A stretch of DNA of 64,000 nucleotides, from contig JAJDTM010000005.1 of NCBI GenBank assembly GCA_022827185.1, positions 310,001 to 374,000 on the forward strand, read 5' to 3'. Made by a program: the position numbers and the translations under genes. This document shows, one piece after another, positions 6,592 through 11,826 of the stretch (position 1 is the stretch's first letter; each line of letters opens with the position of its first letter). The DNA comes from Candidatus Poribacteria bacterium. Its GTDB lineage: Bacteria; Poribacteria; WGA-4E; WGA-3G. The notes beneath the pieces were generated by a model. That model did no database searches and was not told the DNA's origin. It saw nothing but the letters and a program-made list of their open reading frames with translations.

Positions 6592-6608
6592 ATAAAGGAG
6601 TTAAGAAA

Positions 6609-7601
6609 ATGCAAAAGTATAGAAGCTCTCTTGGCTTGCTTGTAGGGCTGCTTGTTGTAGGAGCGTTTTTTGCCCTCAACATCTATGCTGCCAAGGAAAC
6701 CCAAGATAGCACTGCTACTGAGAAAGTGACGCTCAGTGTAACCGGTATGACATGAGGTGGCTGTACCAGCGCGGTGCAGGATGCACTCAGTAAAGTCGCC
6801 GGTGTTTCTGAGGTCGTAAGTGTTTCTATGGATACGAATACCGCTGTTGTGAAAGTAGCAAAGGGAAAAGTAGCAACAGAGGCGTTAGTCAAAGCCATTG
6901 AATCCGTCGAAGGACGCAACTTTTCCGCTGCTCCCATTGAAGAAGTGGCACTTAGTGTAACCGGCATGACGTGAGGCGGCTGTACCAGTGCGGTGCAGGA
7001 TGCACTCAGTAAAGTCGCCGGTGTTTTTGAAGTTGTAAGTGTTTCTATGGATACGAATACCGCTGTTGTGAAAGTGCCAAAAGGGAAAGTCGCATCAGAG
7101 GCATTGGTCAAGGCTGTTGAGTCCGTTAAAGGACGCAACTTTTCCGCTGCGGTCATCGAAGAAGTGACGCTCAGTGTAACCGGTATGACGTGAGGCGGCT
7201 GTACCAGCGCAGTGCAGGATGCACTCAGTAAAGTTGCCGGTATCTCTGAAGTCGTCAGTGTTTCTATGGATACTAACACTGCTGTCGTGAAAGTACCGGA
7301 GGGAAAAGTGACAACGGAAGCATTGGTCAAGGCTGTCGAATCCGTTGAAGGTCGTAATTTTGCCGCTACGGTCATCGAAGAAGTGACGCTCAGTGTAACC
7401 GGCATGGTGTGTGATGCATGTCCGAGCAAGGTGCAGGACGCACTCGGTAAAGTCGCCGGTGTCTCTGAAGTCGTCAGCGTTTCCACAGACACAAACACCG
7501 CTGTCGTGAAAATTGCACAAGGGAAAGTGACGACAGAGGCGTTAATCAAGGCTATTGCAGCCATTGAAGGCGGTAATTTTAAGGCGCAAGTCGCAGATTA
7601 A
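6609..7601 (+). CDS. Secreted selenoprotein with four tandem heavy-metal-associated (HMA) domains, three in-frame TGA (Sec) codons
   Basis: One frame runs from ATG 6609 (SD AAAGGAG) to TAA 7601, 330 codons, interrupted only by TGA at 6753-6755, 6972-6974 and 7191-7193 (codons 49, 122, 195). Each TGA is the first Cys position of the HMA metal motif, giving GMT-Sec-GGC. The fourth repeat has the ordinary GMVCDAC, with Cys at codon 268. Spacing is exactly 73 codons throughout, so the gene is four near-identical 219-bp tandem repeats. Residues 1-28 form a signal peptide ('LGLLVGLLVVGAFFALNIYAA'), placing the protein in the periplasm or outside. Each domain resembles MerP/Atx1-type chaperones binding Cu, Hg or similar soft metals through CxxC. 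A standard gene caller would break it into three or four pieces. That the TGAs encode Sec is inference from position, periodicity and downstream hairpins. Confidence 0.85.
6753..6786 (+). promoter_or_regulatory. Sec codon 1 and candidate bacterial SECIS hairpin
   Basis: TGA 6753-6755, 18 nt, then the perfect hairpin GTGCA-GGA-TGCAC (6774-6786). Bacterial SECIS elements are short hairpins beginning about 11-20 nt after the UGA with a G-rich apical loop. The apex resembles that of E. coli fdhF as I remember it (UGCA stem, GG in loop). Confidence 0.6.
6972..7005 (+). promoter_or_regulatory. Sec codon 2 and candidate SECIS hairpin
   Basis: TGA 6972-6974, 18 nt, then GTGCA-GGA-TGCAC (6993-7005), identical to the first. 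Confidence 0.6.
7191..7224 (+). promoter_or_regulatory. Sec codon 3 and candidate SECIS hairpin
   Basis: TGA 7191-7193, 18 nt, then GTGCA-GGA-TGCAC (7212-7224). In the Cys-containing fourth repeat the same place reads GTGCAGGACGCAC, which loses one base pair at the top of the stem. Confidence 0.6.
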
Positions 7602-11217: not shown

Positions 11218-11826
11218 ATGACATTAAAGAAGCCAAACATCGTTGTCTACCTAAACCTTTCAATCCTATTCGCTGCTGTTATCTTCTTGTGTCCGGCATG
11301 TGATGACGCTCACCAAACTTTACAAGATATAATGCCTCAAGAAGAGACAGTCGAGCAACTCTCGTTGGGTGAAGGACTCGCTATTGGTGCAACGGCACCT
11401 GAGTTCTCATTGCCAGATACAGATGGTAACATCCATAGTCTCTCAGATTATAGTGGACAAAAGTTAGTCGTTGTCTTCTATCGGATGGGTACGTGAGGTT
11501 TCTGTCAAACGCAACTCGGTGAGTTGCAAACAGGTTACAAAGACATTAAAGCACAAGATGCCGAAATAATAGCGATTAGTGCCGATTCACAGGCACTTAC
11601 AGGTTTAACAAAGCAGAATCTCAAGATAACTTACCTTTTACTCTCGGATGAAAATAAGAAAGCGATTGATGCTTATAATGTTATTGACACAAGTAACATG
11701 CGTATCGCGCGTCCGGCAACCTATATTATTGATCAGAATGGGCGCGTGGTATGGAAGTTCCTTGATGTCAAGTTTGACATTCGCGTCAGTTCCGATCAGA
11801 TTCTGACTGAATTGAAAAAATTGTAA
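11218..11826 (+). CDS. Peroxiredoxin-like (AhpC/TSA, thioredoxin fold) selenoprotein with in-frame TGA
   Basis: One frame of 202 codons runs from ATG 11218 to TAA 11826, broken only by TGA 11494-11496 (codon 93). The context is VVVFYRMGT-Sec-GFCQTQLGEL, so the TGA replaces the first Cys of the thioredoxin-fold CxxC. This matches 'Prx-like' selenoproteins, where UxxC is known. An N-terminal hydrophobic segment with Cys (LCPACDD) suggests export, perhaps as a lipoprotein. Domain: 'IGATAPEFSLPDTDGNIHSL' (AhpC/TSA start), redox site, then 'ARPATYIIDQNGRVVWKFLD'. Likely reduces peroxides or protein disulfides. Immediately after the TGA lies a strong SECIS-like hairpin. Second gene of the PhyH operon. 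Confidence 0.85.
11494..11527 (+). promoter_or_regulatory. Sec codon and bacterial SECIS-like hairpin
   Basis: TGA 11494-11496, 14 nt spacer, then a perfect 7-bp stem GCAACTC (11511-11517) / GAGTTGC (11521-11527) with loop GGT. Short spacer, strong stem and GGU loop are the hallmarks of a bacterial SECIS element bound by SelB. Confidence 0.75.

Follow-up and report, generated by a model that had tools for sequence, protein, structure and literature searches.

Strings of HMA domains are found in the Cu-ATPases, for example ATP7B and CopA of B. subtilis, and in this respect these proteins resemble the one described here. The strings of the Cu-ATPases are cytosolic, contain only cysteine ligands, and form part of a P-type ATPase. 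The HMA protein MerP is normally encoded in a mer operon. Animal selenoprotein P is also exported and also contains several selenocysteine (Sec) residues. However, its sequence is unrelated, its SECIS elements are in the 3' UTR, it has more Sec, and it does not contain HMA domains.

Of the 119 families of prokaryotic selenoproteins listed in a 2026 review, most have a single Sec and a few have two or three (PMC13188914). The UxxU metal-binding (seleno)protein NF041115 has two Sec, both in the UxxU motif (PMC13188914), and a MerP selenoprotein was found in ocean samples in the Global Ocean Sampling study (PMC2398784).

The gene described here is in a 64-kb stretch of DNA (the window) from a 6.1 Mb Poribacteria assembly (G000). 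Translated with TGA as Sec, the frame has 330 codons and ends in TAA; its sole internal stops are three TGAs, at codons 49, 122 and 195, exactly 73 codons apart. This reproduces what an earlier sequence-only reading had reported for the three TGAs and the otherwise open frame. U49, U122 and U195 each replace the first Cys of GMTCxxC in HMA repeats 1-3. That reading had also claimed that the fourth repeat is the Cys counterpart, and this was confirmed: a TGT at codon 268 (C268, motif CDAC) is in register with the TGAs. An independent repeat search recovered the four repeats, each of 219 nt. Sites of the AAGGAG or AAGGA type are also present upstream of the homologous genes, and the hydrophobic N-terminus is retained among the homologues (Table 1). 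We infer that the protein is exported via this signal-like segment and that the segment is cleaved. Rfam gave no match (E up to 5) in the 64-kb window or in the gene, and ARAGORN found no tRNA in the window.

Table 1. Features of the poly-HMA gene and its flanks (positions in the window)
Feature	Position	Strand	Basis
Shine-Dalgarno-like AAAGGAG	6594..6600	+	sequence; 8 nt 5' of ATG
Poly-HMA selenoprotein gene	6609..7601	+	frame, Pfam, homologues, selection
Hydrophobic N-terminus (residues 1-28), probable Sec-type signal peptide	6609..6692	+	sequence; predicted helix 9-23
HMA domain 1 (UGGC)	6723..6902	+	profile matches, structure model
TGA (U49) and SECIS-like hairpin, UGA within basal stem	6753..6789	+	folding, conservation, silent sites
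HMA domain 2 (UGGC)	6942..7121	+	profile matches, structure model
TGA (U122) and SECIS-like hairpin	6972..7008	+	folding, conservation, silent sites
HMA domain 3 (UGGC)	7161..7343	+	profile matches, structure model
TGA (U195) and SECIS-like hairpin	7191..7227	+	folding, conservation, silent sites
HMA domain 4 (CDAC, cysteine form)	7380..7559	+	profile matches, structure model
TGT codon C268 in TGA register, hairpin not retained	7410..7412	+	sequence, folding
Intrinsic-terminator-like hairpin, 12 pairs, 3' of stop codon	7609..7635	+	sequence

The protein matches the Pfam HMA family (PF00403) in four stretches (E 5.7e-39; 132.8 bits, gathering score 24.8) and NCBIfam models of the CopZ, MerP and UxxU types. 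An AlphaFold2 model was built from an alignment of five strings (described below), and its block-averaged pLDDT is about 78-92 across the four HMA domains, mostly above 80. Each modelled unit is beta-alpha-beta-beta-alpha-beta, and its UxxC or CxxC motif follows strand 1 and precedes helix 1. One unit superimposes on oxidised MerP (1osd) with a TM score of 0.93 by target, at 1.1 A, and CopA and ATP7B, through their tandem HMA domains, are the best PDB matches in both structure and sequence. The units are tightly joined in the model, the final strand of one domain continuing into the first strand of the next, and with a pTM of 0.65 for the four-domain model the relative placement of the domains is less certain.

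A hairpin of 37 nt begins at each TGA, with the UGA paired at its base, an upper stem of 6-7 bp, and a loop of 5-7 nt. The sequence-only reading had an identical hairpin after each TGA. The fold is indeed the same at U49, U122 and U195 (-15.7, -18.3 and -14.2 kcal/mol), but the hairpins are almost, rather than strictly, identical. The first two Sec repeats fold better than shuffled sequences (z -1.98 and -2.79), and the third does so less clearly (z -1.46). The Cys repeat folds differently in the same register (-10.5 kcal/mol), and no better than shuffles (z -0.34). In bacteria, a SECIS is a hairpin located at the UGA or shortly 3' of it, with a G early in its apical loop, and the hairpins of the poly-HMA gene have this form.

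The hairpin is conserved among 59 distinct Sec-HMA sites. Its paired positions are standard in 91%, compared to 17-53% when the partner is slid by 1-3 bases, and 54 of the 59 sites have G as the second nucleotide of the loop; the upper pair 9-27 is poorly conserved (37%). Because the 59 sequences are related, silent sites within the same genes are a stronger test than pairing. The codon for Val+7 is GTG in all 59 Sec sites, but in only 155 of 662 cases (23%) elsewhere in these domains. Similarly, the codon for Gln+8 is CAG in 59 of 59 (9 of 18 elsewhere) and that for Ala+10 is GCA in 59 of 59 (59 of 347, or 17%, elsewhere). In eight Cys domains the Val site is variable (GTG, GTA or GTT). The conserved SECIS-like hairpin and the frozen silent positions uphold the original selenocysteine reading.

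The host has the machinery to decode Sec. A genome search for selA, selB, selC (tRNA-Sec) and selD had been proposed together with that reading, and all four are present. The gene for tRNA-Sec (77.5 bits, gathering score 47) is directly downstream of selB (336 bits, cut-off 242); selA scores 609 bits (cut-off 268) and selD, at C53:60763-61686, 359 bits (cut-off 125). There is a single in-frame TGA within selD itself, in keeping with a SelD that contains Sec. Among the Poribacteria, selB was found in 76 of 85 genomes, and in 55 of the 56 more complete ones. We conclude that serial recoding of the three UGAs, each with its own SECIS-type hairpin, is strongly supported by the sequence features. 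Having to read through three UGAs one after another should reduce the amount of complete protein made.

The genome contains other candidate selenoproteins. A frame at 11221-11826 (+) in the window, of the AhpC/TSA (peroxiredoxin-like) family, has a TGA at 11494 in UGFC; the frame is split by a TGA likewise in relatives, and is a candidate of a known kind. Elsewhere in the genome (G000:C60), L054:2739-4166 (-) and its read-through extension encode a planctomycete cytochrome c domain, a WD40 propeller, and then an HMA domain with UxxC. Such frames, of about 540 codons and with one TGA, recur through the genus.

Strings of HMA domains with multiple Sec are present in five Poribacteria from three genera. 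Those of G000 and G006 (record PYIY01000077.1, Candidatus Poribacteria isolate PCPOR4) are both Sec-Sec-Sec-Cys, and the two proteins are 93% identical. The string of G021 has four Sec and one Cys (406 codons), that of G064 three Sec and two Cys (UUUCC, 398 codons), and that of G063 three Sec and one Cys (332 codons). The assemblies behind G064 and G063 consist of 2 and 4 contigs, respectively. A sixth string, in G062, is cut by a contig end with two Cys domains visible, and is outside the count of five. The Sec domains come first and a Cys domain comes last in the strings, without exception. Relatives have either TGA or Cys at the codons singled out by the sequence-only reading, and chance is excluded as the origin of the three TGAs, since near and far relatives have them too. 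A scan of genome contigs, with U back-translated as Cys codons, gave only weak matches, in other phyla, besides PYIY01000077.1, and a Pfam scan of the two genes upstream of the string in G064 gave nothing.

In the rest of the family, the majority of genomes carry single-domain Sec-HMA genes instead, one or two per genome and each with one TGA. These are usually at the same locus as the string, between the same PhyH and GIY-YIG genes, and their products are lipoprotein-like in those inspected. Lipoprotein-like proteins with the motif VTGMxRFTS are encoded beside single Sec-HMA genes at L053:7756-8250 (-), L056:6500-6997 (-) and L058:7506-8003 (-). These may be copies of an HMA paralogue whose metal ligands have disappeared; the L053 copy has no Pfam match.

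The string probably arose when a single-domain Sec-HMA gene at this locus was duplicated in frame, and its repeat number is probably still changing. In-frame duplication is suggested because the locus is shared, single-domain Sec paralogues lie beside the G021 string, and the repeats are near-identical. In a tree of the domains, which has 69 columns, is weakly resolved and lacks two G021 domains missed by the motif used, the Cys domains of the window's genus group with those of G064 (97/89). This grouping fits an old Cys-type last domain common to the two genera, but it puts no date on the fusion. Multi-Sec HMA proteins may have evolved on more than one occasion. Among 392 genomes of the Planctomycetota (the phylum of G085, a Scalindua record) there is one exported-looking two-domain HMA frame with two TGAs at ligand positions; this frame (L162, genome G248) has the motifs GMTUGGC and GMRUVRMC.

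We favor the view that the gene encodes a real selenoprotein, made by serial recoding of three UGAs, and think it reasonably likely that the product is a periplasmic multi-site buffer or scavenger of Hg(II), Cu(I) or Ag(I). The type of domain, the position of Sec in the metal loop, and the repetition of sites point to the binding of thiophilic metals outside the cytoplasm; the candidate metals and the metal role itself are proposed from the domain type. The N-terminal signal segment would export the product, which is modelled to fold as four closely joined ferredoxin-like HMA domains. Each Sec domain could then offer a selenolate-thiolate pair (UxxC) in the metal-holding loop of MerP and CopZ, and the last domain a CxxC. 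Selenocysteine might capture metal faster and more tightly and, outside the cytoplasm, recover more easily once oxidised; the terminal Cys domain might serve as an exchange site to a partner. In G000, the exported HMA domains have Sec, except for the last one of the string. Sec seems to track the exported HMA proteins because the P-type Cu-ATPase (cytosolic-type CopA) and the CopZ-like protein of this genome use Cys. The neighbors of the poly-HMA gene are a PhyH gene upstream and a GIY-YIG nuclease gene downstream, with no metal gene adjoining. In a search of G000 for MerA, the flavoprotein matches were all below the MerA cut-off, and these are probably other disulfide oxidoreductases.

Between the genes of G000 and G006, dS is 0.39 and dN is 0.03. 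dN is 0.047, 0, 0.051 and 0.030 in the four stretches divided by the TGAs, and the stretch from U49 to U122 has 18 synonymous and no nonsynonymous changes. Purifying selection persists, equally strong, 3' of every TGA. It is extremely improbable that there is no Sec and that the gene is decayed or mis-assembled, or that an antisense open frame at 6683-7564 (-) is the true gene. That frame runs without a stop for 293 codons and has a low naive dN/dS, but its third position is the wobble position of the sense frame, so low antisense dN/dS is expected. The strength of the sense HMA match, the recurrence of the TGAs in three genera, the full Sec machinery, and the frozen silent sites of the hairpins all argue against it as well. 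We rejected this frame, which is open in homologues too, as a gene; codon phase and the repeats explain its openness. The TGAs could instead be regulated stops that give short products in low selenium and the full string when selenium is available, and thus a set of products graded by selenium. In favor of this, the UGAs are serial and the Cys domain is reached only once all have been read. However, every stop would interrupt a domain at its metal loop and leave each product with a broken domain at its end, and selection does not weaken after any of the stops. We consider regulated stops highly improbable.

If the full-length protein is made, it could have a role other than metal binding. In a redox selenoprotein, UxxC would alternate between the selenol-thiol and selenenylsulfide states, with the HMA folds reducing periplasmic disulfides or peroxides. 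UxxC is the usual redox motif of selenoproteins (PMC13188914), the AhpC/TSA-like protein with UGFC is encoded in the same window, and the lack of an adjoining metal gene would suit this role. Nonetheless, the families matched by each of the four domains are metal-binding ones (CopZ, MerP, UxxU metal-binding), with no convincing match to a redox family, and the GMxCxxC loop and the fold are like those of MerP and CopA, which makes a redox role unlikely. It also seems very unlikely that the protein resembles animal selenoprotein P in carrying or storing selenium, here for the cell or its host community. Export (as predicted), the growth in repeat number and Sec count from 3 to 4 Sec, and the retention of selB nearly always across the phylum are in keeping with such a carrier. 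But the Sec count is low, the Sec residues are exactly at metal ligands, every protein has a terminal Cys domain, and no receptor is known. The metal buffer remains our preferred reading of the function; the sequence-only reading had offered a soft-metal scavenger or a selenium or metal store as a guess. More broadly, these proteins might represent a bacterial poly-Sec HMA family that grows by repeat duplication into exported chains of three, four or more selenolate-thiolate sites, with serial SECIS copies and a Sec-first, Cys-last order, acting as a high-affinity selenolate metal sponge or as a counterpart of selenoprotein P in carrying selenium. We regard this broader proposal as tentative, and rather less than probable.

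The closest described systems share parts of this design. NF041115 has an HMA-type domain with Sec at the first ligand, and the poly-HMA protein scores 152.9 bits against it (cut-off 95), a score that is summed over four domains, with single stretches at 45 bits or less. NF041115 is a one-domain model of 74 positions, whereas the strings have four to five domains and the motif UxxC in place of UxxU. The match to NF045683 (MerT_CopZ_Se, a MerT/CopZ fusion-like heavy metal transport selenoprotein) covers the HMA end only and is below the cut-off (119 bits compared to 375); going by its name, that family has a MerT part. MerP (MerP/MerTP) is an exported single HMA domain with GMTCxxC and an almost identical fold, but it has one domain and the poly-HMA protein has four, and no mer operon accompanies the poly-HMA gene. 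The PhyH and GIY-YIG neighbors and the absence from G000 of a MerA match above cut-off also place the poly-HMA protein outside the MerP group.

The string differs from these systems in ways that could be useful. The number of Sec varies by whole-domain duplication among close relatives, each UGA has a SECIS copy, and the terminal Cys domain provides an internal comparison. These features bring two questions within reach of experiment: how efficiently a bacterium reads a series of UGAs, and what advantage selenium would have as a ligand for metal instead of as a redox center. Among papers under open licences, none that describes tandem Sec-HMA proteins came to light. The four Sec of the G021 string exceed the range of one to three given in the 2026 review (PMC13188914). 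Proteins with a single Sec-HMA domain, such as NF041115, NF045683 and the ocean MerP, have already been described, and what is new here is the multi-Sec string.
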